From positions 10,579,088-10,643,087 of the forward strand of contig CM044959.1 in NCBI GenBank assembly GCA_024516035.1: a DNA stretch of 64,000 bases, read 5' to 3'. Below the pieces are notes generated by a model. That model saw only the letters and a program-made list of their open reading frames with translations, did not search any database and was not told the DNA's origin. Both the position numbers and the translations under genes were made by a program. Below, piece after piece: positions 3,586-52,160 of this stretch (position 1 is its first letter; the number at the start of each line of letters is the position of its first letter). Source of the DNA: Bactericera cockerelli. Taxonomy: Eukaryota; Arthropoda; Insecta; Hemiptera; Triozidae.

Positions 3586-3796
3586 TGCACTGGAAGTCAA
3601 GTGGTTAACGCGCTAGTCTGGTATTGCAGGTAGCGTAGGGATCCGTTGGTTCGAATCCCACCCAGTGCATGCATTTTTCCTCATTAATTTGAGTTTGTGA
3701 CGACATAATAATAAGACTCTGAGGGTTAGGTGGTAGAAAATGCTTTGAGCATTAACCTGGCCTGGTGGTTGCCTTCCACTAAAGAGTATTATTATT
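3586..3796 (+). mobile_element. SINE family A, abutting a splice donor
   Basis: Full copy in the plus direction: head GTGCACTGGAAGTCAAGTGG, box B GGTTCGAATCCC, the hairpin AATGCT-TTG-AGCATT and a TTATTATT tail. The tail ends at 3,796, immediately next to the GTGAGA splice donor (3,797-3,802, minus strand) of the CEP350-like exon. Confidence 0.9.
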
Positions 3797-3802
3797 TCTC
3801 AC

Positions 3803-3961
3803 CGTTGTGCGAGTAAATGAAGGAGTCCTCGGAGCCACTGGACAGACGTCTCAAGTACTTGGGGTAGAGGGCCGCTCTCATGGGGATGACAGCAGGGGGG
3901 GCCAGGGGGGCAGGGGCCGGGGCCTCAGGGGGGTTGAAATCTAGTGGGGAGGTGCTCTGGT
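3803..3961 (-). CDS. CEP350-like gene, exon 10 of those found
   Basis: The acceptor is a pyrimidine-rich CTCCCCCAG; the exon starts in phase 1 to match the previous exon. It codes a Pro/Ala-rich stretch, then a short basic segment and SSGSEDSFIYSHNG. The donor is ACG|GTGAGA, with a SINE starting right after it. If this donor is not used, translation stops three codons later (GEK then TAA), so it could also be a terminal exon. Confidence 0.65.
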
Positions 3962-6900
3962 CTGGGGGAGATATAAATGCGAAAGTTAACACTCACTCAC
4001 TCATTCATCTCGATTTCTCAGCACTGGTTTGTCCTAGGAGGCTGAAATTTGGCATGTATGTCACTTTTAGTTCTTAGATGCGCACTAAGAAAGGATTTTG
4101 AAATATTCCCACTGGGACGCTAGCCGCGAGGAAAAAGGACGCATATCTTATAAATAAAATGAAATTCAATGATCAGTATAAACAGAAATATGTAATAATT
4201 ATTATTTTATGCTTTATTAGAAGGAAATACACAATATTTACAAAATAAAATAGTTTGGAAATTGATAAAAGATAAAATTGTTTGAAAATAAATAAATAAT
4301 AATGTCCTAACTAAAGGGCGGGGTTATTGCCTGCGGCAATCTCTTCCACCCAACCCTTATAGATCGTTAGTGTACATGTTAGGTACTCTATGTACCGCTG
4401 CTCCGATACCTTCTTCTTCTTCTTCTTTTACTCTGTCTTATCCCGCTCAAGCAGGGTCGACGTTGTTCAACCTCATGGTTGAGGTTGATTGGTTTTGGCA
4501 CATTTTTTACGGCTGGATGGCCTTCCTAACGCCAACGATTCTATTTGATTTAACGTCCTGGATTAGGACGGGGGTTTTACCCTCCATTCGCTGGGAATCG
4601 TACCAGCTACCCACATTGACCTCACCCAGCCTGGGTAGGGCCGGAAATGACAGCCTCACGTGTTTGGATGGAACAGAATTTTCTTCGAAAAGTCTGCACC
4701 AGCCGGGAGTTGAACTCGGGAACTCTGGACTAAGGGGAGTAGTCACAACCGTTACGCCACGGAGGCGCCACAACTGCTGCTCCGATACCATTGCTTTGAA
4801 ATAGGATACCTCTAATGTTGATAAAATACAGTCAGTGTATCTTCAAATTTCAAGAGTAAAGTAAGTCTAAATCATAGATGAAAATTTCTACTCATTGCGA
4901 GAAATTCTCATTTAACTATCAATATACACTTAACCTGTGTTAATTCGAATTTACATTGCTTTAATTTTTTGTAAATGTTATAATTTAGACAAAAAATTCG
5001 AATACCAGACATATAAAAGTGTTTCAAAATAATTAGGATGTCTAATATACTCGTAAACACCATGTTTAAAAAAATTGTGTTATAATTATAAATGTGGTGA
5101 ATTGGCGCGCACGACCGAATTATCGCTGAGTTGAAGCGTAGGAAATAGGGAAAGAAGTGCCAAAGGGATTTTGGAGATCGACCTTTTCCACCCAACCACA
5201 GATACCATGTACCTGGATTTTATTAATATGATAAAAGAAGAGGGCTTTAATTAAAAGCTACCAGAATATTTTATTCAGTCTTTTCAATAGTTTTATTACC
5301 TTTCAGAGAGAAAAGAAAAACAAATTCGACAGAACACAGTTGATTATTTCAGAAATTGGAACTCAAAATAATTATTTTATATAAAAAAAAATCGAAATTA
5401 AAAAAAAAAAAAAAATATCCAGAAAAAAAACGAAGAATATTGGGTCACTTCCTCTGGCGAAATAGGCACTGAGATATCTTGTTTACACTTGTGTAAAATG
5501 ATGCATCAATTATTATGGCTTTATGCTTACACCAACTTCTTGTAAACATTGAGAAATTTACGATAGAGTGAACTGTATGAAATATGAACATAATTACACA
5601 CTTCCTATGCTTTGCATTTAATCCAATTTTCATGATAGCATGACACATAATTGCATTTTTGAGCAACTTGAATATTTATTTGACACTGTGCACTGAAAGT
5701 CAAGTGGTTAACGCGATAGTCTGGCAATTCAGGTAGTGTAGGGATCCGTTGGTTCGAATCCCACCCAGTGCATGAATTTTTCCTCATTAATTTGATTTTT
5801 TGACCACATAATAACAAAACTCTGAGGGTAAGGTGGTAGAAAATGTTTTGAGCATTAACCTCGCCTGTTGGGTACCTTCAACTAAAGAGTGTTATTATTA
5901 TTATGGAGTGTCCACTCACACCCTACAACCGAGTCAGAGAATTTGTGTCTTTTGATTTGATTAGATTATGTTGAACAAGTACTTCTCTTTTGTTCTTATC
6001 TCTTACTTTTCAATATCTAGCTGGGCACTTACCTTTCAATATCTTCTGCTGGGAGACTGATTTCACAGGTTTCCCGTGAGCCATTGCCTTGCTGAAAGCC
6101 ACGCCTCCTCGGTCTAGTCCCTCGGGCAGAGAACTGCATGCTTTCAGCTTTCCGCTGGAATAGCAGGGGAATTTGTTTGAGATTAGAATGAGATTAAATT
6201 TACTGATGGCCGAGTCGAGATAAATACTTTTTTTTAAGGAAGGGCGGGGAAAAATCTTTTAAAGACACCCAGGGCTTAGCCTGGGGTGTGGGATTTCCAC
6301 CCACTAGAAACCCACCTTTCCTGATAGCATACTGCACTTGGAACCGAAATATTTTCATTACTTCTAGTGCAGTGCTAATAGGGCCTACCGATCCCGTTGT
6401 AGGGCCCTCCCATCCCTCTCTTTTATACGTATGATCTCTTTTATACATATATCCAAGGTACATCTGAGGAACACTTACACATTGGTCGACAACTCTACAC
6501 CCAGAGGCATGGCCTCGACGGAGGTCACATCACTGTCGGCCAAGTCATCCTGGAACCTAAACGAGTCGTCTATCACCTTCAGTACCGCCTTCGTGTCTAG
6601 CCGGGTCCTGAGCTGGTTGTACTGGTTGGTCAGCTGCTGCACCCGCTCCTGGGGGACGTTAGGAGTGAAGGGGTCACTTTGAGATTAAATGCATTTTGGG
6701 GACGTTAGGAGTTAAGGGGTGACTTTGAGATTAATTGCATTTTGGGGACGTTAGGAGTTAAGGGGTCACTTTGAGATTAATTGCATTTTGGGGACGTTAG
6801 GAGTTGTCACTTTGAGATTAATTGCATTTTGGGGACGTTAGGAGTTAAGGGGTCACTTTGAGATTAATTGCATTTTGGGGACGTTAGGATTAAGGGGTCA

Positions 6901-9900
6901 CTTTGAGATTAAATGCATTTTGGGGACGTTAGGAGTTAAGGGGTCACTTTGAGATTAATTGCATTTTGGGGACGTTAGGAGTTAAGGGGTCACTTTGAGA
7001 TTAATTGCATTTTGGGGACGTTAGGAGTTAAGGGGTCTCTTTGAGATTCATTGCATTTTGGGGACGTTAGGAGTTAAGGGGTCACTTTGAGATTAATTGC
7101 ATTTTGGGGATGTTAGGAGTTAAGGGGTGACTTTGAGATTGAATGCATTTTGGGGACGTTAGGAGTGAAGGGGTCACTTTGAGATGAAATGCATTTTGGG
7201 GACGTTAGGAGTTAAGGGGTCACTTTGAGATTAATTGCATTTTGGGGACGTTAGGAGTTAAGGGGTGACTTTGAGATTTAATGCATTTTGGGGACGTTAG
7301 GAGTTAAGGGGTGACTTTGAGATTAATTGCATTTTGGGGACGTTAGGAGTTAAGGGGTCACTTTGAGATTAAATGCATTTTTTTAATGAACATTTATTTA
7401 AAGAGAGGTCTATAACAAACGAATTCCTTACCCCGAATTTTCTTTAATGAAAGTTATATCGCTTTACTTATACTGCAATTATTTCAGCAGTAAGTCGAAG
7501 ACTTTATACTATGTGGCAAAAATCCCAAATGGGAAGATAACTTGTCGTGTCCCGGCTGAGTTTGGAACACGCGACCTCTGGAATACCAGACGGACGGCTA
7601 TGCCTGGGACAACAGATGAGTTAGCTTTCTCGTTACCTGAGTAGTCACCATGGCCGAGTGAGTTAGCGCAACAGGTATTGCACCCTAATGACCTGGGTTC
7701 GATCCCCAGCGGAGTAGAAATTTTTCTTCTCTGTACGTTGGGTGCTCGGGGTTCACTCATACCTCGTGATGAAAAATGAGGAACTGCTTTGATTTGTGCA
7801 GCGACCAGTGGCGGAATTAGAAGCAAAAAAAGTGTTAAAAATTCGTATGATCCTGCAATACCCAGTAAAATTGTGATAGAATAACACGAAAAAAAAAACA
7901 TTATTATTACTATCATTATCATACAGGCGAATGTTGAACCTTGTAACAACATTCTGTTGTTACAAGGTTCAACCCACCCAGTGCATGAATTTTTCCTCAT
8001 TAATTTGAGATTGTGACCACATAATAAGACTCTGAGGAGGGTTAGGTGGTAGAAAATGCTTTGAGCATTAACCTCGCCTGGTGGTTACCTTCCACTAAAG
8101 AGTATTATTATTCTGCTGTATTCTGTATTCACTCAAATAAATTTTTATTACAAAATTAGATCGAAAAATTCGAGAGACTTAAATAATTATAATAATATCG
8201 CCTTTTTTTATACTGCCCGATAAGGACTATTAAAGTCCCATTATTCCAGCAGTAAGCCCAAGACATATTATTATGTGGTAAAAATCCCAAATGGGAAGAT
8301 AACTTGTCATGTCCCGGCTGGGTTTCGAACCTACGACCTCTGGAACTTCTGGATTTACAGAGAGCCGCCTTCACCACTGAGCTACCGGGACCGACCTTAA
8401 ATAGGTTATTTTAAGTCGGTTTTTAAATAGGTTAAAATTGAGAGAAAAAAAACATTAGTTACCTGGGACTGGCTGAGCAGTTGCTTGGCAGCGGCATTAA
8501 GCTGGCCCCTCTCCTGGTTTAGTCGCATCAGGAGACCCCTCTGTCGCTTCTTCAGGATGCGGATCTGGTCGCTACTCTGCGGGCCGCTGTCGCTCTCCTT
8601 CAGCGTTCTGAAGAGATAGCGTCATTTTTTTTACAGTCAGATAACCTCACCCATTCTGGGTAGGGCCGGAAATGCAAGCCTCGTCGAAAAGTCTGCCCCA
8701 ACCGGGAGTCAAACTTGGGAACTCTGGGCTACGGGCAGTAGTCACAACCATTTTTTTTTTTTTTCCAACATGAGTTTTCACAGCCTTTTTTATTTCGTAG
8801 TCATGAAACAGGAGCTGCTGTAGACGCTTGTGGTCTCTGTTGTAGCCTCCCCATCCCGTAGTATGCCTCCCCTCTGAAGGGCGAGAAGTGACACAATACT
8901 TCCCATTTAGGTGCTGGGTCAAAACGAGCACACCGAAAAGTATCCCTCACAAACAATAAAATTGTAACCAAATTAAGAATACAAATTTTTGTCGGCACGG
9001 GGGATCGAAATTGGGACTTTCCGCATGGCAAGCGAGTGTTGACAAAAAGGGCAAAAAAAAGGCAAAAAAGACTTCCTACGCAGGTCCATTTCATACACCC
9101 ATATAATTTCACAAAATTACTGGAGGGTGTTAACAATTAAACTATTTTCTACCAATTAACACCTGTCCTAAACAGTGCTGTTTTTTACTGCCCGATTAGA
9201 ATTAATGAGTCCCATAATTTCGGCAGTAAACCCAAAACGCATGAGGTCAAAAATTCCAAAGGGGAGAGCTTAACTTGTCATGTTCCGGCTGGATTTCAAA
9301 CCCACGGCCTCTAGATGTTTACGTGTAATAGAGAACTGACTATATTAGAAACCTCTTCAAAATAGAATTTTTGCTCTGTCCCGTGGGTTCTAACATATAC
9401 AGATCTAACTGTAGCTCGTTGTGAGTTTTCAGCGAATGGAGCGTGTTTGGTACTGTTTAATAGTTGTATTAATGAGAGAGCATTGTGCTGTACATCAACC
9501 CAAAAATTAAGAAATCACCAACAAGTTCTCTCACCCTCTTTCAAATCAGAGCGAAACATACCTAGAAAGCTCCTAGATAGTCAGTATAAATTTGACAACC
9601 ATTAGAGAAAGTACAGTTTATTCAGAGCTTTTTATTATAGAATTATCATCCAAGTGAAAAGTGAATTTTTCAATACACCTCAATAATTATTCTGCATTTT
9701 AATTGACCGCTTTTATATTAAAGGGCAAAGGCCTCCGCTCCCCTCCTAATCTCCTTTAAGTCTTCTAAAATTTCAGCAGTAATATAATATAATATATAAT
9801 AATAATAATGCTTTTTCTTTGTGTTATTATGTCACAATTTTAGTGGGTAGCGCAGAATCATAGGACTTTACCACTTTAATTTACAATATCTTGTATTATT

Positions 9901-15900: not shown

Positions 15901-18900
15901 AGGTACCCAGAATCCTAACATACGAGGAACTCTCTACAGTATTGGTTCAGATTGAATCCTTACTTAACTCGAGACCTCTGTGTGTTCTTAGTTCAGATGG
16001 CAGTGAGCCCTCTGCTCTCACTCCTGCACATTTTCTTAATCTTGTTCCTTTGAGATCTATTCCGTCAAAAGACGTCTCGGATGTAAATGAGAACCGCTTA
16101 CAACGGTTTGAGTTATTGAACAGGATTGTTCAGGTGTACTGGAAAAGGTGGAGTCTTGAATATTTGACTAATTTGCAGGAGAGACAAAAATGGAAATCCC
16201 CCGCTCCTCCTATAACCCCAGGCACGATTGTAGTTATTATGCAGGACTTGCTTTCACCTCAATATTGGCCCTTGGGTGTCGTGACTGATGTCTATCCTGG
16301 TAAAGATGGTATTTGTAGAGTGGCTTCAGTCAGGACATCAAAGGGTGTGTTCAAGCGTCCAGTGGTAAAATTATGCATTTTACCTACTCAGTAGGTGTCT
16401 ACTTAGTTTTATATTTAGTTGGTTGTTATGACTTACATTATTTTAGTAGTCATAACTAACATTTTAGTTGTTGTACATAGTAAGGAAAATCCTTTTTGCA
16501 CCCCAGAAGTTTAATTTATTTCATTTTCAAATATTACATTTATTTAGTTTTTCATATTTTTTTTTTGGTTGTTGGTTCTTGTGAATTTTCATTTGGAATT
16601 TTTATTTACTTTTCTCGATATTGTAAAAGTTAGCTTAGATATGAGATGGTCTACTTTTCTGCTTTTATTTTTAATTTTTGTTGTTAGTAGACTATCTTTA
16701 CTTTAACCCTTTCGTGGTCATTATGAAGTGATTACTTCATGGCCGGGGGAATGTTTGGTACTGTTTAATAGTTGTATTAATGAGAGAGCATTGTGCTGTA
16801 CATCAACCCAAAAATTAAGAAATCACCAACAAGTTCTCTCACCCTCTTTCAAATCAGAGCGAAACATACCTAGAAAGCTCCTAGATAGTCAGTATAAATT
16901 TGACAACCATTAGAGAAAGTACAGTTTATTCAGAGCTTTTTATTATAGAATTATCATCCAAGTGAAAAGTGAATTTTTCAATACACCTCAATAATTATTC
17001 TGCATTTTAATTGACCGCTTTTATATTAAAGGGCAAAGGCCTCCGCTCCCCTCCTAATCTCCTTTAAGTCTTCTAAAATTTCAGCAGTATAGGGAAGGGT
17101 GATAGCGGTGAGTGATAAAAAAAAATCTACAAGTCTTGAGTCACGTAAGTAAAATCTTTTCAGCCTTTTTATATAAATCATTTCTTTACCATTTGAACCA
17201 GCCCTATTAAATTTTTAGAATCTACAGTCCACTTCGCTCCAGAGCGTAAAATCCTCCCGTCATGATATGACCGCGCATTTTTTTTTTTAAGTCTGTACAC
17301 ACGCAGTAGTTTACTGCCTTTACGTGTACAGCTTGTTTCATTACATACAAACCCATATGTAACAAAACAAATTTATTCATACATTACTAGGTACAATTTT
17401 CTAATAGAAGAGTGCATTGTTCTTTAAATTTGTCTTTTGTATCACTAATTCAAGTTGTAATGAATATGCAATGCATTGTAAAGTTTCAGGGCTGATAATA
17501 GTGGTGATTATCAGCTTGATATGGACTTGATTTGTAATTGGTATGATAAAATAATCATTATCAGCATTGTTTTGCGATTCATTTCTTCTATTTCTTAGTC
17601 TTAAATTGGGGACTTTGATATTTATTTTTTGAATGAGGTTTGGAAGGTTTATTTATTAGTTCATGCACAAATAATAATTTAAATTTATTTCTCCTATTTT
17701 CGAGAGATTCAATGCACATTTGTTCCCTCAGTAATTTGTATGATTGACAGTTGACAGTGACGTTAACATACAAATGCTTACTTCTTCTCAGTCTCCAGGC
17801 GGGACAGTTCCGCCATCACCTTGTCCGTCACAGCTTTCGACTGCAGCTTGAGAATGATCTTGCCCTGCCTCTGTCTCTCCTCCTCCGCCTTGATCATCTT
17901 ATCCAGCTGAAACAGGAGCCCAAGCATTCGGAGCTGACACTTAAGTGCGAAAGGAGCGACATCAAAATCGACAGATCCCTGCCTTATACAGTACCGAATT
18001 TCAAGGTGCACTGGTAGTCAAGTAGTTACTGGTTATCCAGGTAGCGTAGGGGTCCGTTGGTTCGAATCCCACCCAGTGCATGAATTTTTCCTCATTCATT
18101 TGAGTTTGTAACCGCATAATAATAAGACTCTAAGGGTTAGGTGGTTGAAAATGCTTTGAACATTAACCTCGCCTGGTAGTTACCTTCCACTAAAGAGTGT
18201 TATTATTAAGTACTATCTTCAGCTTTACTATAATCAGTTTCAAGTTCATAATTTCAACACGAACCAGCTGAAACAGGAGCCCTGAAAGATCCCTGAATTT
18301 TACAGTACCAAATTTAAAGTATTATCATTATTATTATTACTACTACAATAGAGTACATAGAATATATACAATTATACATAGAAATTGAAATAAGTACATA
18401 CTATCTTCTATAGTCAATTTCAAGTGCATAATTCAAACACGAACCACCTACACAACACACAGGACACGGAAGGAGCCCACATTAACCGGCCTCTGTGGCG
18501 TAACGGTTGTGACTACTGCCCGTAGTCCAGAGATTCTGAGTTTGATCCCCGGTCGGGGCAGACTTTACACACATGTAATTCTGTCCCCTCTGTACACGTG
18601 AGGCAGGCATTTCCGGCCCTACCCAGGCTGGGTGAGGTTAATGTTGGTTGCTGGTACAATTCCTAGCGAATGGAGGGTAAAACCCCCGTCCTTATCAAGA
18701 CGTTAAATCAAATAGCATTGTTGGCGTTAGGAAGGGCAGCCAGCCGTAAAACCAACCAACCTCAACCATGAGGTTAAAGAATGCCGACCCACAGCAGTTT
18801 TGGGAATAAGCAAAGTGAAAGAAGAAGAAGATGTTCAATCCAAGGGGTTTAATACCCATAGTCTAACTAAACAATCACGACAAAAAAATTGGTTTTTGTG

Positions 18901-21900: not shown

Positions 21901-22884
21901 GAGTAGAGTTAGCTCTAATATTCAAAGGTTGAGTTTCAAATTTCTTTATTACATTGACTTAAACTTACTATAATATTTTTTAGTGAAAGGTAATCACCAG
22001 GCGAGGATAATGCTCAAAGCATTTTCTACCACCTAACCATCAGAGTCTTATTACTATGTGGTCACAAACTCAAATTAATGAGAAAAAAATCATGCACTGG
22101 GTGGGATTCGAACCAACGGATCGCTACACGACCTGGATTACCAGACTAGCGCGTTAAACACTTGACTCTGTCGCTCTGACTCTCTGTAGCAAATAATTAA
22201 TAAATTGCAACTTTACTGTTGCTAGATAAGGTTTATCTAGCTTTATTTGGGGGTGCGGCTCCTGTTTTTGACTAATCCGCTTCCCCCCTTAATTGTTCTT
22301 ACTGTCCTGTGTGTTTTCTGTTTCTTGTTAAGTGTTGTCTTAATATAGATCATGTATTGTTGTTATCTTCCTGCTAATTTAACCACAGGAAGAGCAGGTA
22401 AATTGTCTTGGTGTATGTGTTATGCAGTTTGTTGTGTCGTTCTGACTGTGAATTTTACACAGAAATTCACGTGATCATGTCTCACCTCGGGCGAGCGACT
22501 TCTCGAGGGTTCCGGCGAAAGTGTCGGGCGTGATGAACTCGGTGCTCAGGGCGCGCTTGAGCAGGCGCACCTTGCTGTTGAACTGCGCCAGAGCCCCGCC
22601 CGCGCTACTACTTGCGCAGGTCTCGTGGAACTCGGAGCAGAGGGAGACGTGGAGGGGGGAGGGAGAGGGGTGAGAGGGGGGCGAGGGGTGAGAGGGGTGA
22701 GGAGGGGGGGGGAGGGGGGCGAGGGGTCGACGGGGTGAAGTGGTGAGATGAGGGGGGTGAGGAGGGAGAGGGAGAGGACGCTGGGGCGAGTCGGAGTGGG
22801 GAGTGGCTGGGCGGGCTGCGATGGCGGGTTTTGCAATCTGAGGGGAGGATGCACCCGATTAAATGAGAAGAGATGGAATTTTTT

Positions 22885-22917
<33 letters not shown>

Positions 22918-25475
22918 AGCACGTTTATGAATCATTTGGGTGAGACCAGAATTGTTGTATATGTTGTTTGTTACAAACTATGAGATTATAAAAAAAAAGT
23001 ATTTTTCCCTTTGACATATTTACAGTGGGGGTTCAGTAAACCATTGAACCGACCCCTGGATTGCCAGACCGAGGGCTTGACCACTGAGCTACCGGGACTG
23101 ACTCTAGGGTAGGGAATAAGCCTAGTTAACTCGACCACATTGTTATCGTGTACCTGTGTCATACGCCTGATCCGTCTTTCTCTTGGGCGCCTCCTTCTCG
23201 TCAGCTCCGCCCTCCAGATCCTGCAAGCTCAGCGGGAGGCGTGGTCTAGACTCGGGAGGCGTGGCGACGGCCTTCAAGGGCGGGGCTATCACAGGCTTCA
23301 TCACATTGGACTTGCAGGATTCCAGGATCCGTTGCTTCTCCGTCAGCGACGTGAACAGCCCTCGAGCTTTGGTTGAGCTTGGAGAACTCCTGATTGACTT
23401 GGCGTGGGACGACTTCCCGATGTTCTTAGAAAGCCATTTGTCGGACGATGCTTTGGAGTCCAACAGTTGGGACACGTTCAAGCTGTGAGCACTGTTCTCC
23501 TTCGGACGACTACCGGTCTCTTTGATTATGTCTTTGAGTGGGTGCTTGGACCTTTGCTGGCTCATGTAAGACTCCTTGGCGACATTCCTGCGAGGGCTTT
23601 GCAGAGGCTCCGAGCTGCTTCTCCTAATGTTGGGATGCCCAGGGGTCGGAGGGTCAGGGTTGGGAGGGCCGAGGTTGGGAGGGCCGGGATTCGGAGGGCC
23701 GGGGCTGGGAGGGCCGGGGTTCTGCTTGCGAGGTCGGGGCCGCGGGGAGAGGTGCTCGGAGCTGTGCACCACCTTGGTGACGGTGGTGCGGGCCACGGCC
23801 GCGTTAGGGCCTCGCTGCATCTTGGACAGCAAGCTTGGAGGCCGCTGCGTCGAGGCTCTGTGCGCCTGGAATGAGAGAGAAAGAATGAAAGTTAGGTCCG
23901 AACCCATGAACTGTTTTTGTTTCCTGTAATCAAGGGTGGTGTGGAAGAGAATGCCGAAGACATTATCACCACCCTTGTTCAGGCTTTGTTTATATTTATT
24001 TCTCAACTTGTTACCATGTTCATTGTATATAAAAGATGTAAATAAAGCTTGATCCAAATGTTTATAAATTAATAAATAAATAAATAAAAGTTCAAGGTCC
24101 GAATTAATTAACGCTGCTGTGGTGGACACTGTTACTATAGTATCTGATTTCAGTTATGTGTTTGGCTATTACCATGGTAATAGTACAGCGAATTAACAAA
24201 AAAAAAATCCGGCATTTTATAATAAAAGTACCGAATTTGGCACAGGGGTAGATCGATATAAAGAAAATTTGGATATGGAGCTATCGGCCAACTGCCCTCT
24301 GGAGTGCGTAGCGGCCTCCAGAGCAAAGTTTTGTAGACATTTCCTAGCTAATTTGCCGTACTACAATAAAAACAGTACAGTAATAGCCTCCGTTTTAGAG
24401 TCGTCAATTCATATGGCCCTTGGAATAGTTTATGGTCTTTGTGGATAACTTACTTTGTTTTCTACACGTTAAAAAAAAAAAAAACATTAAGAAAAAAATA
24501 CATTTTAGGAGAAAGAGGTATGAAAAGAAAACGTTGGACTGATGGTGTCAGAAGTGGTATGGAGAAGCTAACCCCCAGAAAGCCGTGAAATTGGAAGAAT
24601 TTGCTAAAGACAGGACTAGTTGGAGCAATATGGGGTATAGAGGTTTTGGGCCCCCGCGCCTGTATCGACCCTATAGTAAGTAAGTAAGATATTTGCAAGC
24701 CATCACGTACGATAGGTTAGGTGGTAAAAATGCTTTGAGCATTAACCTCGCCTGGTGGTTACCTTCTACTAAAGAGTCGAAACCCGGGCCTGAGTGGAAT
24801 TTTTACACATAATAATACGTCTTGGGCTTACTACTGGAATAATGGGACTTTAATTAGTCCTAATTAGGCAGTATAAATCAACAGGTTGATGAATTTGTGT
24901 GATGTTTATCCTAATATGGACTACTCACAAAGAATGGGGTGCTTTGTAGCAGATCTAAAAGATATTCTTTATGCATTATGATTTTCTTTATTTAAAATTT
25001 ATTAGCTTATTTCTGACTTTTATTCTTAAAAATGCTGTTATTTTTACTATTATTATTTTACTTTAGTCAATTATAAGTGTATTAATGATGATATAGATGG
25101 GAAACCACTGTTTTGTAATGCACTCTAAATAAAATAAATAAATTGATTTTTTTTTTTATCATCATCATCATCATTTTATTGTTTTAATACATACATGTAT
25201 GTTAACAAGTTGGGTGTACTAAAACTAGTCTTAAATCTTAAATTGAAATTGAATTACGTTAGCCTTCATCTTGAGCTGTTTCATCGTGGCCTCGAACTCG
25301 GCCTTGTGCTGTTTCCTCCGCTCCTCCTCCTGTTTCCTGGCCTCGAGCTCCATCAGCTGAGCCTCGTACCGCTCCTGTTTCTTCTTCTGGATCCACTGGC
25401 GCGTCTCCTCCCTCGCGTCCACCTGCTGCTTGATCCTGCCAAGCTCGTCAGAGTCTTGCTGCATGCTGCCGCGAC
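3803..25475 (-). CDS. CEP350/CCDC187-like centrosomal protein, partial multi-exon gene
   Basis: Ten internal exons join into about 1,200 codons: 25475-25258, 23865-23165, 22610-22486, 21731-20125, 19391-19131, 17906-17782, 8607-8463, 6648-6479, 6154-6033, 3961-3803. Acceptor/donor dinucleotides are canonical and phases match at every junction, apart from the uncertain 23,165/22,610 boundary. The protein is mostly disordered, with charged coiled-coil segments at the start (exon at 25.4 kb) and in the exons at 17.9, 8.6 and 6.6 kb. The block ending KKRQRGLLMRLNQERGQLN resembles the central helical region of CEP350 (a centrosome/cilium microtubule-anchoring protein), which is the basis of the call. 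Start and end are missing: no initiator exon was seen on the right and no CAP-Gly domain on the left. GC-rich exons contrast with AT-rich introns. Family assignment is from memory of the motif, not a search. Confidence 0.6.
4196..4366 (-). mobile_element. Retroposon family F (hairpin domain + tail)
   Basis: The minus strand reads GGTTGGGTGGAAGAGATTG, then GCC-GCA-GGC pairing, AATAACCCCGCCCTTTAG, an AT-rich body and an AATAAAG-type tail. No tRNA head is visible. Four other copies or fragments lie in the window. Confidence 0.75.
4402..4772 (-). mobile_element. SINE family E, full length
   Basis: The minus strand has a tRNA-like head (CCTCCGTGGCGTAACGGTTG, then box B GAGTTCAACTCCCGG), a conserved body (GGCCCTACCCAGGCTGGGTG; GTCCTAATCCAGGACGTTAA) and an end with an AACCTCAACCATGAGGTT hairpin. 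It matches 18,488-18,838 along its whole length. Confidence 0.85.
4800..5687. other. AT-rich intron sequence
   Basis: No gene or full repeat recognised. A short family-F-like fragment (TTCCACCCAACCAC) lies near 5,185-5,200. The rest is A/T-rich with poly-A runs. Confidence 0.4.
5688..5902 (+). mobile_element. SINE family A, full length
   Basis: Plus-strand copy with head GCACTGAAAGTCAAGTGG, box B GGTTCGAATCCC, a weakened hairpin (ATGTTTTGAGCAT) and a (TTA)n tail. It lies in the intron just downstream (in the gene's sense) of exon 9. Confidence 0.85.
6033..6154 (-). CDS. CEP350-like gene, exon 9
   Basis: 122 nt between acceptor TGCTATTCCAG and donor AAAG|GTAAGTG. It enters with one base completing a Val codon and leaves in phase 1, matching both neighbours. 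It codes a basic, low-complexity segment (GKLKACSSLPEGLDRGG). Confidence 0.7.
6479..6648 (-). CDS. CEP350-like gene, exon 8
   Basis: 170 nt between acceptor CTAACGTCCCCCAG and donor ATGT|GTAAGTG. It codes a coiled-coil start (ERVQQLTNQYNQLRTRLD) followed by an acidic segment with DDSFRFQDD. The acceptor lies at the edge of the 47-bp minisatellite, so its branch point and pyrimidine tract are made of repeat sequence. Confidence 0.75.
6649..7382. repeat. Minisatellite, 47-bp unit, about 16 copies
   Basis: The unit GACGTTAGGAGTTAAGGGG + TCACTTTGAGATTAATTGCATTTTGGG is repeated about 16 times with few differences, including two units with small deletions (near 6,800 and 6,885). It fills the intron next to exon 8. 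There are no spacers between units, so it is a simple tandem array. Confidence 0.95.
7461..7590 (-). mobile_element. SINE family B, truncated
   Basis: Minus-strand copy: tail-side segment (ATACTGCAATTATTTCAGCAG), then AATCCCAAATGGGAAGATAA and GTCCCGGCTGAGTTTGGAAC, the 3' side of the tRNA-like head. The outermost head is replaced by other sequence. Confidence 0.7.
7642..7930 (+). mobile_element. SINE family C, older copy
   Basis: Head GTAGTCACCATGGCCGAGTG with box A-like GAGTTAGCGC and box B GGTTCGATCCCC, then body CACTCATACCTCGTGATGA, the GACCAGTGGCGGAAT arm and a (TTA)n tail. It is diverged from the copy in the LTR at 9.8-10.1 kb. Confidence 0.85.
7933..7973. repeat. Perfect 19-bp hairpin at a SINE-SINE junction
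   Basis: GTTGAACCTTGTAACAACA, loop TTC, then the exact reverse complement. The right arm runs into the box B region of the next SINE A copy. Such perfect pairing in a decayed region suggests a recent inverted duplication. Confidence 0.9.
7966..8112 (+). mobile_element. SINE family A, 5' truncated
   Basis: It begins inside box B (GGTTCAACCCACCCAGTGC) and continues through the conserved hairpin AATGCT-TTG-AGCATT to a TTATTATT tail. Confidence 0.8.
8191..8393 (-). mobile_element. SINE family B, full length
   Basis: The minus strand has head GGTCCCGGTAGCTCAGTGG, box B GGGTTTCGAACCTACG (slightly decayed on the plus reading), body AATCCCAAATGGGAAG and a tail ending AAGGCGATATTATT. It lies about 70 bp from exon 7. 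Confidence 0.85.
8463..8607 (-). CDS. CEP350-like gene, exon 7 (family motif)
   Basis: 145 nt between acceptor TATCTCTTCAG and donor CAG|GTAACT. It codes a coiled coil containing ILKKRQRGLLMRLNQERGQL. This is the best family signature in the gene: CEP350 and CCDC187 carry a KKQRGLLL-type segment followed by QQEK in the same position after an AEL-LE-QKK helix, and here that helix is the previous exon. Confidence 0.75.
8643..8752 (-). mobile_element. SINE family E, truncated
   Basis: Minus-strand head half: AACCTCACCCATTCTGGGTAG, then CCAACCGGGAGTCAAACTTG (box B) and GTAGTCACAACC. It is cut off at a poly-T run. Confidence 0.75.
9181..9315 (-). mobile_element. SINE family B, decayed
   Basis: Minus-strand copy: TTACTGCCCGATTAGAATTA, CCCATAATTTCGGCAGTAAA, GTCATGTTCCGGCTGG. 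It is followed at 9,318-9,405 by a dispersed repeat that recurs at 19,745-19,833 (AGAGAACTGACTA-ATTAGAAACCTC). Confidence 0.7.
9444..10260 (+). repeat. 5' LTR of BEL/Pao element 1, with SINE insertion
   Basis: It starts TGTTTGGTACTG and ends CTTCGCTCCA. Its 817 bp equal the 490-bp 3' LTR plus a 312-bp SINE and one 15-bp target duplication. Confidence 0.95.
9782..10093 (-). mobile_element. SINE family C inserted in the LTR, 15-bp target duplications
   Basis: A 312-bp full-length SINE in the minus direction: head GTAGTCACTATGGCAGAGCG, box B GGTTCGATTCCC and a (AAT)n tail. It is flanked by AAAATTTCAGCAGTA at 9,767-9,781 and 10,094-10,108. The empty site is preserved in the 3' LTR, so the boundaries are exact. 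The duplication length and tail show LINE-type retroposition, and the family moved after a recent LTR insertion. Confidence 0.95.
10261..11170 (+). promoter_or_regulatory. Leader of BEL/Pao element 1, including the primer-binding region
   Basis: 900 bp between LTR and gag. TTTTTGGTCATCTTCGGGCC follows the LTR directly and is the likely primer-binding site; the primer tRNA is not assigned. The second element has a related TTTTTGATCCTTCG at the same place. No ORF of note. Confidence 0.6.
11171..15955 (+). CDS. BEL/Pao element 1 gag-pol polyprotein, interrupted by a frameshift
   Basis: 1,594 codons from ATG (TCAAATATGGG). Order: gag with a DUF1759-like region (about residues 130-290), cysteine/histidine knuckles (about 345-420), A17-type aspartic protease with DSAS at 487-490, reverse transcriptase with YMDD near 893, RNase H (SDSS near 1,070; FTDS near 1,140), integrase with an HHCC region and the D, D, E residues near 1,441, 1,507 and 1,561. 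An extra base near 15,910 shifts the frame, so this ORF ends about 15 codons after the break. The last 150 codons continue in the next frame. The protease has DSA where DSG is usual, which some A17 members tolerate. Confidence 0.9.
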   Translation: MGNETKEIKTTGLTDPTAEALHNNKVLLEAKRNSLYSVAKSASELAKKLADDPNNLVLLKAKCQALPAVRDSFIEVLDKLNLVKIQLDSTYTPDYSDLEKFVTHCGYAQDILASTREVTAVVPTQKSKVRLPALELVPFNGEFSEFNVFYESFKSMIHENRDLDNTQKVQYLVSKLTGKALTVCAGIPATGDNYTIIFNNLVEKYQCKRSEARVYLSKILNFKAIKSECPAQLNPLIDELCSSVLALKKVDLASLSDFMLAHVTLSKLDSETARLFEMSLKSNEIPTFQNVHTFLKDHVKILSRLEVSNPGPNRPTSSSSGQKSFLPNKGKVSQTFIVEHSQSKPSSCIVCKSSPAHPIYSCKLFLDKSPDVRYQIVRDKGFCINCLSSQHKVKNCQSKHSCKKCNQRHSTLLHFPQASYPQPHFSEPGPAKTSGVIGSGQENSFCALQSFNLNDNNNSSHVVLLPTAQVFVTDSRGIQQSIRVILDSASSCNLITSACCRRLGLPLGKMYASVKGIGDSGSSVKGQTCFTFTSRFDTDIKYQANALVVDIITSSLPAARVPADRLTHLRHLPWADPDFATPACVDAIVGAQLFSELFQSTRVLNPNGPVAMETSLGYVMMGSVASSSNIKSLENHSFHIVEKPLELLIQKFWEIEDVCTPKVLNQEESDCEEIFQSTVSRDSTGRYSIAMPFQHDPSNLGNSYLGAERRFNSLERKLLANPSLHSSYCEIIQSYLDKGYMSPLDSDNHDTGYYVPHHVLIKQDKITSKLRIVWDFSFKSDSNKSLNDLLYTGAKLYSDLITILLNFRLYKIAMTADIAKMYLQINMKPAHHSYQKLLWRFRKEDPLRTYCLTTLNFGLNSAPFLALRTVKQLVEDEKDHFPLAGEFAGRDMYMDDVACSVPDIKVASQLQSQLVGLFRAGGFDLTKWSSNSKEVLEKIPETDQVSSLVEWDSDSKETIKILGLQWNPNTDSFFFQAHLEPKVATKRNILSAVARIFDPLGLVQPVVLVAKLLIRELWSIKLGWDATPPQKIIHTWDCFQSELPLISQIQFPRHISVTQNSHVVLVGYSDSSESAYGGMVFCRTTLPTGEIKVHLVCSKSRVAPLKSTSLPRLELCGALLLAQLMARVVDTYRARQSIEKIFCFTDSMVALHWIRSSPHRWQTFVANRVAKVHELVSQNVWYHVAGISNPADCLTRPIMAQEFINHRLWFSGPEWLKSDIADWPLDMVHSELTSVPEEKLVALAVVEPPIHFLLELSCKISSWLKLLNIIIFMCRFIHFLSRRDFISVSDRNFAETLLIKALQRQFFAKDITALENNKECSSQLRHLNPFLLDGLLRVGGRLSNSSLGYEHKHPLILPKKHPVVNLIIEFFHISNLHTGPSLLLAILRKKYWILSGRDIVRRRVKACNHCFKLNPKPTFPLMADLPQFRVQETKSAFTHTGIDFAGPFHITLAKRRGIKSQKAYLCLFICLVTKALHLELVSDLSTAMFLAALKRFVSRRGPVSFIYTDNGTNFVGCKNELDDLYKLLSSSAHSKQFAEALSFHQIEWKFLPPTASHFAGIWESNVKSVKTHLYKAIGTQNPNIRGTLYSIGSD
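15942..16394 (+). pseudogene. BEL/Pao element 1 pol C-terminus, out of frame
   Basis: This frame holds the C-terminal integrase tail with a DUF5641-like domain (PLGVV-DVYPGKDG-RVASVRT, then RPVVKLCILPTQ). The second BEL/Pao element has this part fused to its integrase, so the separation here results from a one-base change near 15,910, not from a separate gene. Confidence 0.9.
16743..16751 (+). other. Polypurine tract of BEL/Pao element 1
   Basis: CCGGGGGAA directly before the 3' LTR, the expected position of the plus-strand primer. Confidence 0.6.
16752..17241 (+). repeat. 3' LTR of BEL/Pao element 1
   Basis: 490 bp, TGTTTGGTACTG to CTTCGCTCCA. It preserves the site that is occupied by a SINE in the 5' LTR. 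The target duplication GAGCG follows at 17,242. Confidence 0.95.
17247..17781. other. AT-rich intron sequence
   Basis: Between the retrotransposon and exon 6. No repeat or gene recognised. Confidence 0.4.
17782..17906 (-). CDS. CEP350-like gene, exon 6
   Basis: 125 nt between acceptor TCCTGTTTCAG and donor AGAA|GTAAGC. It codes a highly charged helix (LDKMIKAEEERQRQGKIIL, then KAVTDKVMAELSRLETEK). This corresponds to the AEL-LE helix that precedes the KKQRGLL motif in CEP350-type proteins. Confidence 0.75.
18007..18208 (+). mobile_element. SINE family A, full length
   Basis: Head GTGCACTGGTAGTCAAGTAG, box B GGTTCGAATCCC, hairpin AATGCT-TTG-AACATT and a TTATTATT tail. Confidence 0.9.
18488..18838 (+). 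mobile_element. SINE family E, full length
   Basis: Head GGCCTCTGTGGCGTAACGGT, box B GAGTTTGATCCCCGG, body GGCCCTACCCAGGCTGGGTG, 3' end AACCTCAACCATGAGGTTAA with an A-rich GAAGAAGAAG tail. It matches 4,402-4,772 in reverse. Confidence 0.9.
19131..19391 (-). CDS. CEP350-like gene, exon 5
   Basis: 261 nt, phase 0 at both ends, between acceptor CCCCTAACCAG and donor GAACTG|GTAAGT. It codes a Ser/Pro/Leu-rich segment with a short internal repeat (ALCDPLPS, TLCDPLTD) and ends FTVKNWNSPKFSLEL. Confidence 0.7.
19400..20124. other. Intron 4-5
   Basis: AT-rich, with the dispersed repeat copy at 19,745-19,833 that matches 9,318-9,405. No other feature. Confidence 0.4.
20125..21731 (-). CDS. CEP350-like gene, exon 4 (long disordered exon)
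   Basis: 1,607 nt without a stop, between acceptor TTTTCTCTTACAG and donor AACAG|GTCTGT. The frame reads through the whole exon from GAT-GCT-GTC at the junction. The protein is Ser/Thr/Arg-rich, with a possible short motif FEMLGFRDPTPFNF. Near the end are three tandem repeats of about 38-39 residues built on TYKVPRNVPPACHPTV (plus-strand positions about 20,320-20,690). No enzyme domain is visible; it is probably a flexible linker or scaffold region. Confidence 0.75.
21972..22167 (-). mobile_element. SINE family A
   Basis: Minus-strand copy with conserved hairpin (GCTCAAAGCATTT), body and head ending at CACTTGAC; the outer head is slightly cut. Confidence 0.85.
22486..22610 (-). CDS. CEP350-like gene, exon 3
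   Basis: Codes ALAQFNSKVRLLKRALSTEF and TPDTFAGTLEKSLAR, a helical segment, to donor CCGAG|GTGAGA. The upstream limit is uncertain: acceptors at 22,611 (phase-compatible with donor 23,164) or at 22,631 (better pyrimidine tract but wrong phase). I list the phase-compatible one. Confidence 0.6.
22631..22800. repeat. G-rich/purine-rich low-complexity tract
   Basis: Almost pure G/A on the plus strand with many GGGG runs. On the gene's strand it is a C/T tract just upstream of exon 3, and could act as a very long polypyrimidine tract. The plus strand could form G-quadruplexes. Confidence 0.8.
22886..22916 (+). repeat. Poly-A run of about 30
   Basis: Long uninterrupted A run, possibly a retroposon tail, but no clear element precedes it. 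Confidence 0.8.
23059..23101 (-). mobile_element. SINE family B head fragment
   Basis: GACCACTGAGCTACCGGGAC matches the complement of the B head (GTCCCGGTAGCTCAGTGG). Only about 40 bp remain. Confidence 0.6.
23165..23865 (-). CDS. CEP350-like gene, exon 2
   Basis: It opens after acceptor CTCTCATTCCAG in phase 0, matching exon 1. It codes a basic, Pro-rich, disordered region with a tandem PGPPN repeat (plus-strand 23,630-23,725), then KSSHAKSIRSSPSSTKARG and LTEKQRILESCKSNVMKPV. Two donors are possible: GC|GTATGA at 23,164 (phase fits exon 3) and ACAG|GTACAC at 23,153. Confidence 0.7.
23931..24090 (+). mobile_element. Retroposon family J (hairpin domain + tail)
   Basis: GTGTGGAAGAGAATGCCGAAG with the paired arm (one mismatch, GACATT), then ATCACCACCCTTG, an AT-rich body, AATAAAGCTTGATCC and a (TAAA)n tail. 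It is closely related to the two copies at 48.5-48.8 kb. Confidence 0.8.
24093..24190 (+). mobile_element. Miniature element family K, partial
   Basis: AAGGTCCGAATTAATTAACG, then GGTGGACACTGTTACTATAG, shared with 52,172-52,327. Only the left part is present. Confidence 0.65.
24715..24885 (+). mobile_element. SINE A 3' fragment fused to a SINE B fragment
   Basis: 24,715-24,777 is the hairpin end of family A (AATGCT-TTG-AGCATT, ACTAAAGAG). From 24,778 a family B body follows (CGAAACCCGGGCCTGAG, ATAATACGTCTTGGGCTTAC). Confidence 0.7.
25258..25475 (-). CDS. CEP350-like gene, first exon found
   Basis: 218 nt between acceptor GACTGTTCGCAG and donor CTAAC|GTAATT; enters in phase 1, leaves in phase 0, matching exon 2. 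It codes a strongly charged coiled coil (ETRQWIQKKKQERYEAQLME, EARKQEEERRKQHKAEFEA). An upstream exon must exist because of the phase, but I could not find it in the 30 kb to the right. Confidence 0.7.
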
Positions 25476-30248: not shown

Positions 30249-30433
30249 TCTGTTATTTTCAAGTTACTTTTTATACTAGGATCTGAACAATAATGATTTA
30301 TGTGCCAGTTTTGGTATACGCCTGGTTTCGGGTTTGTCTTGTGGTCATGGTTCCAGTTCAAATACTTTGAAAAATATTATACGCTTCAATTGATTTCAAG
30401 AATAATACGTTTTTGGTTATCTTGTGAATATAA

Positions 30434-30608
30434 AGGGTTTGGTGGAAGAGAATGCCAAAGGCAATGACCCCACCCTTCAGTTAGGGCATATGTGTATATA
30501 TATTTATCTATTTTTTCCTCTTTATTGTTTATATTGTTTCCATTTTTTTATTTTTATAATAATTATTTGTGCTGTACATATGTCTTTTTATATCTAATAA
30601 AGTAGATA
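30434..30608 (+). mobile_element. Retroposon family F
   Basis: GGTTTGGTGGAAGAGAATGCC-AAA-GGCAAT hairpin, GACCCCACCCTTCAGTTAGG, AT-rich body, TCTAATAAAGTAG. Confidence 0.75.
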
Positions 30609-30757
30609 GATAGAGAGAAGATAGAAAAAGTATATGTAATAATATAAGCGACAAATTAAGTTAGAAAAGTAAGAACTTTAAAACGGTTATCAAATAACCT
30701 GATTTAATAATTAAATTTATGAGTTACGAAAAAAGGTAAAATTTAGATGCTTTAGAT

Positions 30758-40600: not shown

Positions 40601-40764
40601 CAATTTAATCAGGTGACACCGGTGTTGCCCGATGGAATTGGAAGACAATGGATTGCACGGGCCGCATGATGTAATGTCGGGCGAATGCAAAGTGTGGCAA
40701 CACTGGCTTTAGAAATGGTGTGCGACAAAATACAATGACACGTGTGTGGTCGATTATTATCAAA

Positions 40765-40945
40765 AGCTTTATTAGATTATAATACATATGTACAATACAA
40801 ATAAGTATTTTAAAAAATAAATAGAAAAATGGAAACAATATAGACAATAAAATAGAAAGAAATAAGATAAATACATACGAGTATATCCTAATAGTAAAGG
40901 GCGGGGTTATTGCCTATGGCAATCTCTTCCACCCAACCCTTGGGT
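40765..40945 (-). mobile_element. Retroposon family F
   Basis: The minus strand reads GGTTGGGTGGAAGAGATTGCC-ATA-GGCAAT, AACCCCGCCCTTTACTATTA, then an AT-rich body and an AATAAAGC tail end. Confidence 0.8.
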
Positions 40946-42009: not shown

Positions 42010-42148
42010 GTGCACTGGTACTCAAGTGGTTAACTGTGGGTTCGAATCCCATCCAACGCACGAATTTTTCCTCATTAATTTGAGTTTGTGACATAATATG
42101 ACTCTGAGGGTTAGGTGGTAGAAAATGCTTTGAGCATTATTATTATTG
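42010..42148 (+). mobile_element. SINE family A, internally deleted
   Basis: Head GTGCACTGGTACTCAAGTGG joins directly to GTGGGTTCGAATCCC, skipping the middle of the tRNA-like part; the hairpin is present, ending AGCATTATTATTATT. Confidence 0.8.
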
Positions 42149-42229
42149 TTTTTTAGTCTTTTACTTGAAGTTTAGCATGCCTATCAGGAGAGTGTTCTTC
42201 AAAGCTATTTAATGGTCAAAGGACTTATA

Positions 42230-43475: not shown

Positions 43476-43674
43476 TAATAATAATAATACTCTTAAGTGG
43501 AAGGTAACTACCATGCGAGGTGAATGCTCAAAGCATTTTCTACCACCGAACGCTCAGAATATTATTATTATGAAAAGTAATGAGGGAAAATTCATGGATT
43601 GCGTGGGATTCGAATCAACGGTTTCCTACGCTATCTGGATTACTAGCGCCTTAACCATTTGACTACCAGTGCAC
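43476..43674 (-). mobile_element. SINE family A
   Basis: Minus-strand copy from the (TTA)n tail to the head ending CCAGTGCAC, with several substitutions. Confidence 0.85.
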
Positions 43675-44278: not shown

Positions 44279-44573
44279 CAGTCAAACCTGCATATAAGAA
44301 AGAGAATAATAAAACTCTTTATTGGAAGGTAACCACCAGGCGAGGTTAATGCTTAAAGCATTTTCTACCACCTAAACCTCAGAGTCTTATTATTATGTGG
44401 TCATACCTCAAATATAAAGGTTAACTTCCAATAAAGAGTATTAATATCATTGCTGATCAGGATCTCATCTCGAGAGTGTGAAGCACTCCCAAAAGAATGT
44501 TATTATTATTAGTTTTATTATAGAGAGGTAAATAGGAATTTGAAATTGTTCTTTTATATCCAGGCTCGACTAT
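44279..44573. mobile_element. Pogo/Tigger-like miniature element with a SINE A inside
   Basis: Inverted ends CAGTCAAACCTGCATATAAG and the complement of CTTTTATATCCAGGCTCGAC, with TA at the border. A truncated minus-strand SINE A occupies 44,306-44,425. The remaining interior matches the fragment at 42,230 (TAGAGAGGTAAATAGGAATT). Confidence 0.65.
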
Positions 44574-46141: not shown

Positions 46142-46183
46142 GTGGGTGTAACAAAAAGAGATCGAGTGACATTATTTTCTGTC

Positions 46184-47960: not shown

Positions 47961-48147
47961 GATATGGCCATCTCTTCCATCCAACCCTCGCTCCTACCGT
48001 CAAGCGTCCAAGTTCCAAAAACAAAATATCACAGAAGAGGCCAGAGGACCACATTCTTGCCTCCATGTAACTTCCTAAATAATTTGATCCAGCCTCGAGC
48101 CACCTAAAAAATAACAGAATCATTGAATACTTGCACGGTAATAGTAC

Positions 48148-48539: not shown

Positions 48540-48690
48540 TATTTACATTTTGAGAGAGAATGCCGAAGGCATTATCACCACCCTTGATCAGGCTTTGTTT
48601 ATATTTATTTCACCATGTTACCATGTTCATTGTATATATAAAAAAAAAATGTAAATAAAGCTTGGTCCAATTGTTTTTATAAAAAATTTT
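48540..48690 (+). mobile_element. Retroposon family J, plus copy of an inverted pair
   Basis: GAGAATGCC-GAA-GGCATT hairpin, ATCACCACCCTTGATCAGGC, AT-rich body and AAATAAAGCTTGGTCCAA. Confidence 0.85.
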
Positions 48691-48699: not shown

Positions 48700-48805
48700 A
48701 TGAACAATATGAACATGGTAATAAGTTAAGAAATAAATATAAACAAAGCCTGATCAAGGGTGGTGATAATGCCTTCGGCATTCTCTTCCACACCACACTT
48801 GGTTA
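48700..48805 (-). mobile_element. Retroposon family J, minus copy of an inverted pair
   Basis: Minus strand GTGGTGTGGAAGAGAATGCC, loop, GGCATTATCACCACCCTTG. It faces the previous copy head-to-head across about 25 bp, so the two could fold into a long hairpin. Confidence 0.85.
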
Positions 48806-49019
48806 CAGGAAACAAAAAGAGTTGGAAAAAAACATAGAAACTATTTACAATTGAAGTATATGAACAATTAAATGAATATTTATTTTTATACAAATATTCA
48901 TGCTGCCCACCATATGGTGCTGAATATGGGTATAGCAGGTTTGTGAGTTTCCTGAAAATGGAGGGTAACACCCCTGTCGTTATATGACCATGCAGTAGAA
49001 AGCGACGTTAAACCCTAAT

Positions 49020-50833: not shown

Positions 50834-51390
50834 ATATGTAGAAAATTCGGGTGAGTCGTTGGAATCGACCTATCTTGTTTAGAAGATAATTGAGATTACA
50901 TGCAGAAGCCTGTTAGAAAGCCAGTAAAGATTCGTAATTCCTCTTTGCTCAGACAGAGCATTTTTGCTTTGCGTTTTTCTTTTGCTCTTTTGGATGAGTG
51001 ACTTAAAAAATAATCACCTGATTTTCGCCTGATTCTATAGCTTCTTTCACACCATATGTCACTAGGATTTACCAAGAACAAAAATCTAAATCTAATCTCA
51101 AAGATTTGAACTCTTGCTGATGACTTCTGACTTCGGTTTTCCAATTCCTAATAGAGGTTGAAACAATATTGCTCGGTACACATTGTGGTTACTGCTGGAA
51201 CACACAGCGGTTTCTCCACTGTGGTTTCATGGTTTGACCACCACGAGACGCTATGATACCGCCGTGTTAACATGAAATAGCTGACGAACTTTGCAAAAAC
51301 CAATGACTGAAAAGTCTGGGAACAGAAGCAGGGGCGAGGAGGTGAAACTAAAAGGGGAGGAGGCTCATTGTATCGAGTGAGTTTGATCTA
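50834..51390. other. No gene supported
   Basis: An 82-codon minus-strand ORF at 50,896-51,144 has no features I recognise. Otherwise blank. Confidence 0.35.
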
Positions 51391-51598
51391 CATTGGTAGT
51401 CAAGTGGTTAACGCGATAGTCTCGTAATCCAGGTAGCGTAGGGATCCGTTGATTCGAATCTCACTCAGTGCATGAATTTATCCTCATTCATTTGAGTTTG
51501 TGACCACATAATAATAAGACTCTGAGGGTTAGGTGGTAGAAAATGCTTTGAGCATTAAGCTCGCCTGGTGGTTACCTTGCCACTAAAGAGTGTTATTA
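51391..51598 (+). mobile_element. SINE family A, full length
   Basis: ACATTGGTAGTCAAGTGG head, box B, hairpin AATGCT-TTG-AGCATT and tail TGTTATTATA. Confidence 0.9.
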
Positions 51599-51892
51599 TA
51601 AGGATTTTCATTATTATTATTATTATTATCTACTCAAACCGATTTTTTTTTTTTTAATAAAAAATTAACAATTACACGAACAAGCAATATGTGTGTTCTA
51701 GCAAAGTTTCCACTCGTAATCAAAGCCATGCTCTATTGGAATTGAACCCAACATTCAAGTGATGGTCCTTGACGATCATACTGGTCAGATGTTCAGATTG
51801 TTCAGGGTAGACGCTACTTTGAGAGTCTAGTAGCTCAAGATATACAGGGTGGCTGGAGAGAATCTAAAGTTATGATATTTGTGTTAATTATT

Positions 51893-52160
51893 ATTATTAT
51901 AATTCAACACTTTGTTGGTCAACTACATGATACATTCAACAAAATATAACATGAAAAAAAAGAACACAATAGAATATTTAGTGAACCAAGGGGCGAGGTT
52001 AAAGCCTGTGGCTTTCTCTTCCGCCGAATCACTTTCATGATGTCACATCTTCTCAAACTCGCTTTACTAAATCTTTGCTGAAACCGGAACTTGAACCGCC
52101 GACCTCCAGGTTACAAGTCCGCCGCCTTATCGATCAAGATACTGAGGTCGGTGGAGAGAA
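51893..52160 (-). mobile_element. SINE family D, full length with hairpin domain
   Basis: Minus strand: tRNA-like head CCGACCTCAGTATCTTGATC, box B GCGGTTCAAGTTCCGG, linker, then GGCGGAAGAGA-AAGCC-ACA-GGCTT, TAACCTCGCCCCTTGG, an AT-rich body and a tail AACAAAGTGTTGAATTATAA. This copy shows that family D ends in the same hairpin block as A, F and J. Confidence 0.85.

Follow-up and report, generated by a model that had tools for sequence, protein, structure and literature searches.

A short block able to fold into a hairpin is shared by unlike retroposons in Bactericera cockerelli (Hemiptera, Triozidae), as seen in 64,000 nucleotides of contig CM044959.1 (assembly GCA_024516035.1, positions 10,579,088 to 10,643,087 of the forward strand), hereafter the window. 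The block occurs in two settings: near the 3' end of a tRNA-derived short interspersed element (SINE), family A, and at or near the 5' end of headless retroposons, namely families F and J and an insert in a SINE of family D. Its paired bases covary, which suggests that the folded RNA, rather than the exact letters, is kept. With more confidence than doubt, the block is read here as an RNA-structure module exchanged between the tRNA SINE and the headless retroposons, probably serving as a protein-binding handle for retroposition.

Occurrence of the block

Written as GGTGGWAGA-N15-TAACCYCGCC, the block matches the window 15 times with up to three mismatches, against a mean of 0.03 in 100 shuffles. 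A covariance model search of the window recovers 21 copies at E ≤4.1e-8 (13 A, 4 F, 3 J and 1 D). Because 19 of the 21 were used to build the model, their scores are no independent proof; the other two, damaged A copies at 2471-2529 and 42106-42158, were omitted from the training alignment (A2). A shorter form of the pattern has 29,357 exact matches (14,511 + 14,846) in the 565-Mb host assembly, where the window sits on a 46-Mb contig, and the reversed control has 0. Five pattern scans of viral contigs returned one chance phage-like match in all, and of GTDB contigs six chance matches, phage or bacterial; both collections may lack records close to the genome of the window.

A first-pass annotation of the window had reported the block in representative copies of A, F, J and D. 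It lies at or beside each of the places named (starts 3729 +, 4350 -, 23940 + and 52025 -), the copy at 48,550 (+) being partial, and the inner stems re-read there are as described: AATGCT/AGCATT in A, ATTGCC/GGCAAT in F, AATGCC/GGCATT in J and AAAGCC/GGCTTT in D. The J right flank reads TATCACCACC, and the J copy at 48,550 has no left flank. The copies are listed below. The blocks of all but the F-A chimera were located with the covariance model; the D insert is delimited by five uninterrupted D copies and by its flanks, which when joined give the empty site; 3' ends of the four F elements were set by eye.

3721..3773, +: block in tRNA-SINE A, reference copy (71.7 bits; tRNA-like head 3587-3669)
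279..330, -: block, A copy
2471..2529, -: block, A copy with internal insertion, omitted from alignment A2
5824..5876, +: block, A copy
8037..8089, +: block, A copy
18132..18184, +: block, A copy
21989..22041, -: block, A copy
24712..24763, +: block, A fragment with no head and no tail repeat
42106..42158, +: block, A copy passing from the hairpin directly into (ATT)n, omitted from alignment A2
43503..43555, -: block, A copy
44328..44380, -: block, A copy
51524..51576, +: block, A copy
52407..52459, -: block, A copy
25572..25762, +: headless F retroposon with 5' hairpin block (25572-25624), AT-rich body, AATAAAG and (TAA)n tail
4190..4358, -: headless F retroposon, block 4306-4358
30433..30625, +: headless F retroposon whose stem, AATGCC/GGCAAT, has one unpaired position; block 30433-30485
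40737..40941, -: headless F retroposon, block 40887-40941
47963..47988, -: F-A chimera, in which an A head is directly preceded by the initial 26 nt of F
23909..24084, +: J retroposon with a 9-bp direct repeat, AGGTCCGAA, close to each end; block at 23932-23984
48709..48823, -: J retroposon, block 48748-48800
48541..48679, +: J copy without the 5' flank of the block, inverted relative to the neighbouring J
51886..52026, -: 141-nt headless insert in a D tRNA SINE, with the block at its 5' end and TAA repeats at its 3' end

Structure and covariation

Folding of the 34-nt cores of A and F encloses the inner stem in a second helix, in which GGUGG pairs with YCGCC, and the F core folds with a z score of -3.5. 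Across the 19 aligned window copies, 93.8% of cells pair, compared with 89.0% in shuffles (0/500 reach 93.8%) and only 31.6-49.8% when the arms are slid; the covariation score is 0.245 against 0.156 shuffled (0/500). An alignment of 91 genome matches (79 distinct) gives 93.3% paired cells against 86.2% shuffled, 71 two-sided cells against 27.6 and a covariation score of 0.281 against 0.165, each reached by 0/500 shuffles. The first-pass claim that stem bases change on both sides yet keep pairing is thus upheld by a covariation score above all 500 shuffles in both sets. Two-sided changes in the window copies fall at three of the six inner pairs, and the outer pair at columns 13/42 is seen as U-G, U-A and C-G. 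Three lineages each altered one stem pair on both sides; under random placement the chance of keeping all pairs is 2.8e-4, or 2.7e-5 if only Watson-Crick pairs count, in a calculation that assumes a star tree from a J-like ancestor picked after the fact.

The paired cells of the window alignment include 27 G-U among 196, and the antisense strand would pair 169 of 209 cells. Since G-U cells would be A-C on the opposite strand, the structure belongs to the sense RNA. Among the first 100 genome matches listed, found with a pattern that leaves the stem unconstrained apart from its last base, all six stem pairs are present in 79, five in 18 and four in 3. Substitutions concentrate in the loop: in the 65 F-type copies of this set, departure from consensus is 0.22 at loop positions and 0.02-0.03 in the stem arms, and in the 32 A-type copies it is 0.17 and 0.03-0.04, respectively.

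Several observations weigh against a conserved fold of this form. On its own, the A core gives a weak fold (z -1.4). Folding of longer stretches (z -2.0 to -3.1) moves the outer pairing into other registers: AAGGGU/GCCCUU in F, an 11-bp helix in another register in J and a further one in D. These predictions thus leave the inner stem firm but not the precise register of the outer helix, which is also less certain because none of its five pairs has a two-sided change in the window copies. Pairs with two-sided change and further pair types are no more numerous than in shuffles in the 19 window copies (95/500 and 406/500 reach them), and the 91 matches have five pairs with two-sided change (reached by 56/500), with further types at 262/500. 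Of the covariation test that had been proposed, the scores therefore stand above the shuffles and the counts of pairs and pair types do not; the counts fall short because just three or so independent two-sided events are visible in all, among copies that are related. The structure guided the fitting of alignment A3, and the covariance model that of the 91-match alignment; of the 20 10-kb host stretches behind the latter, 7 were chosen, like 8 further loci, for carrying listed matches, which makes the sample uneven. In F, moreover, the third base of the loop is invariant (65/65 copies).

It is quite unlikely that the pairing is maintained at the DNA level, as a short imperfect palindrome repaired by arm-to-arm template switching during reverse transcription or replication and without RNA function. 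The inner stem is short and its loop has 3 nt, as such repair would suit, and fold-back does occur in these elements, with an inverted 5' end in 3 of 58 F copies and two inverted J copies at 48.5 kb. Arm copying would, however, make Watson-Crick pairs, and the outer helix retains U-G in 14/19 and G-U in 12/19 cells; the unpaired positions between the two helices are conserved as well.

Other folds were considered and set aside. A pseudoknot pairing GGTT with AACC is weaker than the nested helices (78.1% of cells pair). Rfam gives no ribozyme match in the window at gathering scores and none for F at E up to 10; an HDV (hepatitis delta virus)-like ribozyme, weighed by eye only, likewise has no Rfam match in either.

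Carriers of the block

The block similarities of A-F, F-J, F-D and J-D are each reached by 0/2,000 shuffles and that of A-D by 1/2,000, and the A-J similarity is weak (33/2,000). F and J also align across 104 nt (75%, E 1.2e-11) and therefore have more than the block in common, contrary to the initial description of their bodies as different. The D SINE with the block at 51886-52026 is split by a 141-nt insert, where five other D copies run uninterrupted, which rules out the block as part of the D SINE; first annotated downstream of the D tRNA head, it is the 5' end of the nested headless insert. Because the D case comes from nesting and its insert is related to the headless retroposons F and J, the one block proposed for four families is shared by elements with different heads, as claimed, in two settings rather than four families.

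The D-type stem is a lineage of its own: its perfect form, AAAGCC/GGCTTT, has one copy in the window and 648 exact copies genome-wide (301 + 347). Counting against strict maintenance of the pairing, three D-type copies among the first 100 listed matches have AGCTTT and five pairs, one being lost; all three belong to copies of a single larger repeat. This repeat, seen at host loci L020, L021 and L022, is about 1.66 kb long and has inverted ends of about 400 bp, and a D-type block copy has been multiplied along with it. Host locus L035 (2058-2109, -) has a further headless lineage, whose stem is AATGCC-TAA-GGCATT, whose flanks differ and whose tail is AATAAAG/TAAA.

Family A is a tRNA-derived SINE by its tRNA-related head: positions 3587-3669 match the Rfam tRNA model (25.5 bits, E 0.0023), although the score falls short of the gathering threshold of 29. 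The lack of any ARAGORN tRNA prediction in the window counts against this assignment. TATTATT or longer directly follows the element in 10 of 13 copies, by our count. A aligns through head, body and tail with SINE family B, which was observed at 8183-8394, 25770-26010, 30092-30247, 46170-46402 and 58893-59095 and resembles A in its head, in its ACCACATAATAATA body and in its ATATTATTATT tail but carries another hairpin at the site of the block. A reading of the block as a diverged form of the B hairpin was rejected, the similarities being no better than shuffles (A-B reached by 655 and 1,048, F-B by 1,995 and 1,668 of 2,000). In an A copy at 47802-47960 (-), what is missing coincides almost precisely with the hairpin (GAGGGTTAGGTTCCACT), as though copying had skipped the structure, and three tandem A modules about 140 nt apart stand at L035 3550-3885.

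The headless F elements begin sharply at the hairpin. F copies were collected by BLAST of 925 nt around one copy, LINE (long interspersed element) flank included, against 224 kb of host loci plus the window. Of the 32 non-duplicate copies, 16 have the first base of AAGGG as their own first base; 25 start within query positions 735-741, four at 746-752 and three elsewhere, and none continues into the LINE flank of the query. In 40 listed copies, four of them from sequence already in the set, the upstream flanks are unrelated but for three duplicate pairs and fragments that do not adjoin both starts. AAGGGTT precedes the block in 25 of these 40; the other 15 deviate from it in the 8 nt preceding GGTGG, which tells against a fixed start. 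In all host and window sequence examined, 93 F starts are preceded by 58 distinct 25-mers, among which a single pair is similar, owing to a duplication; these starts were found by an AAGGG-bearing word with at most three substitutions, and truncated copies were not counted, which also weakens the case.

At the other end, AATAAA (once TATAAA) lies 130-172 nt from the start in 17 of the 20 F copies read to the 3' end, out of the 40 listed, and is mostly followed by TAA, TAAA or A repeats. A 202-nt F copy with 27 A is inserted in a LINE at L035, where LINE relatives (98% and 96%) show the empty site; together with the D insert, this makes two insertions with a known empty site. Given the sharp start, the AATAAA and repeat tails and the empty site in the LINE, F looks like a retroposed polyadenylated RNA starting at the hairpin. 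Target-site duplications fit this less well, being short candidates only, in 3 of 20 F copies; one F copy elsewhere has an AT-rich 9-bp repeat. At host loci L056, L083 and L090 (3/58), the F start is directly preceded by 11-15 nt that repeat the 5' end of F in inverted orientation, like a snapped-back cDNA end.

No head is visible in F, in agreement with the first-pass annotation: Rfam gives no match at E up to 10, and the 58 distinct starts have no shared upstream sequence. A tRNA-, 5S- or 7SL-related head is accordingly not seen in F, the family scanned, with which J and the D insert are classed. There is little probability that F is no family at all but arises by recurrent 5' truncation, at the hairpin base, of some longer element that is autonomous. 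One common 5' start is indeed found in several F subfamilies whose AT-rich 3' parts differ, as truncation would give; against this, no two unrelated copies among the 58 distinct starts share upstream sequence, and hence no copy with a common extension was seen in about 350 kb of window and host sequence.

Other repeats were also observed in the window. An element that has GGAAGGSCAKCCAGCCGTAAAA and tails of AAGAAG is present twice, at 4505 (-) and 18730 (+), and presumably resembles the V-domain part of mollusc and arthropod SINEs. BEL/Pao open reading frame (ORF) stretches are flanked by the repeats 9444-9781/16752-17089 (100%, 338 nt) and, in a second case, 31312-31965/37858-38511 (99.8%, 654 nt); since the flanking repeats are near-identical, these insertions are probably young. 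The best named matches of a BEL/Pao integrase piece, at 85%, are in Diaphorina citri and Cacopsylla melanoneura, and one other match reaches 87%, which points to a psyllid as the probable host. About 70 copies of a 27-bp repeat at 27310-29460 leave frames open on both strands.

Origin, role and known systems

The module is best pictured as a sense-strand hairpin of about 45-50 nt, in which a putative outer helix (GGUGG/YCGCC or pairing in an adjacent register) is followed by an asymmetric internal loop and by an inner helix of 6 bp closed by a 3-nt loop. It forms the 5' end of the abundant headless F family, with its relatives J and the D insert, and also stands in the 3' half of SINE A. Template switching, of the kind that the F-A chimera at 47963-47988 suggests, may have moved it between element types. 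In RNA it might act as a handle by which a protein needed for retroposition, either a LINE ORF protein or a host ribonucleoprotein, is bound; alternatively, it might guard the 5' end of the RNA. Either role would explain why the pairing and the purines beside it persist although two or three positions of the loop drift. Neither a binding partner nor a transcript nor an autonomous carrier turned up, which speaks against this picture. More tentatively, headless polyadenylated short retroposons may have as their 5' end a structured RNA domain in common with a tRNA SINE (presumably transcribed by RNA polymerase III), making the domain a possible portable handle that recruits LINE proteins whatever the polymerase.

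A different origin, and an improbable one, is that the block is the 3'-tail stem-loop of a stringent partner LINE, which A and F/J copied and which the reverse transcriptase of that LINE recognises. LINE proteins bind 3'-tail stem-loops (available text of PMC4176376), a plant LINE/SINE 3' hairpin has compensatory stem changes (PMC3747384, in part), and 24 nt separate the block (CGCC) from the ATT repeat in the A consensus. However, the F hairpin stands at the 5' end, with AATAAA or TATAAA following 130-172 nt from the start in 17 of 20 copies. A genome search with a LINE fragment scored 146 of 5,224 candidates, all of one LINE group, and the block is carried by 0 of 20 LINE 3' ends picked across these matches (best 7.2 bits, E 1.8), so the resemblance to resident LINE 3' ends that had been suggested is not seen in that group. 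In the window, no reverse transcriptase domain was found in the 147 ORFs scanned out of 228 of at least 60 aa (35 ORFs in the BEL/Pao and minisatellite stretches and 46 others lay outside the scan). No homologue of a 261-aa LINE fragment was found at E 1e-5 among 304 candidates.

Two further LINE connections were rejected. At L035 the F block falls in frame as the final codons of LINE ORF2, and a role as the ORF2 C-terminus is refuted by the 98% and 96% relatives, which end differently, and by the empty site. A LINE 5' end as the source of F had 0 matches at E up to 1 in eight LINE 5' regions (27,108 bases, the same LINE group).

The preferred reading, a module exchanged between the tRNA SINE and the headless retroposons, addresses the question of why SINEs of different origin share short conserved domains, for which tail exchange, module exchange and host benefit have been proposed (PMC6887750, in its available part). 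If the portable-handle reading is true, it explains why such SINEs keep sharing them. The block is small and clearly structured, has 29,357 exact pattern matches and occurs in both tRNA-headed and headless elements, which makes selection on RNA structure directly testable.

Among known systems, the nearest are the highly conserved SINE domains, of which V, CORE, Deu, Nin, Ceph, Inv, Pln, Snail and Meta are named in the available text of PMC8010984. The block is likewise one short domain common to retroposons with different heads and tails (A-F similarity 0/2,000 shuffles), known here from one genome. MESC is a further domain of this kind. It is unlikely that the block simply is a published domain (Inv, Pln, Meta, Nin, Snail, MESC, V or another): it is the same kind of object, but F has no Rfam match, and the literature searched, in which the papers likeliest to print the sequence were not covered, gave neither a description of the block nor a printed domain sequence. 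The V domain is about 120 bp long (PMC6887750, as far as available), as against about 45-50 nt, and, unlike the highly conserved SINE domains, the block is the 5' end of headless elements.

Mollusc short retrotransposons, described by Matetovici et al. in 2016, reportedly have a LINE-derived 5' end and share a body or tail with tRNA SINEs. F resembles them as a headless element sharing a module with a tRNA SINE and differs in that no LINE origin of its 5' end was found in the eight LINE 5' regions of one group. The stem-loops of stringent LINE/SINE 3' tails, in zebrafish (PMC4176376) and in plant L1/SINE pairs (PMC3747384), both sources being available in part, are likewise hairpins with compensatory changes and conserved neighbours, whereas in F the hairpin is 5'-terminal, a long way from the tail, and it was not found at the 20 LINE 3' ends. 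The moth SINEs HaSE1, HaSE2, HaSE3 and PxSE (PMC3272025, PMC8010984) are also insect SINEs of different origin with a shared body part and module exchange; the likeness is one of description, as the terms stem-loop and hairpin appear in neither text. A domain common to unlike SINEs is thus an already known kind; what differs here is its place as the 5' end of a headless family, together with visible compensatory change.

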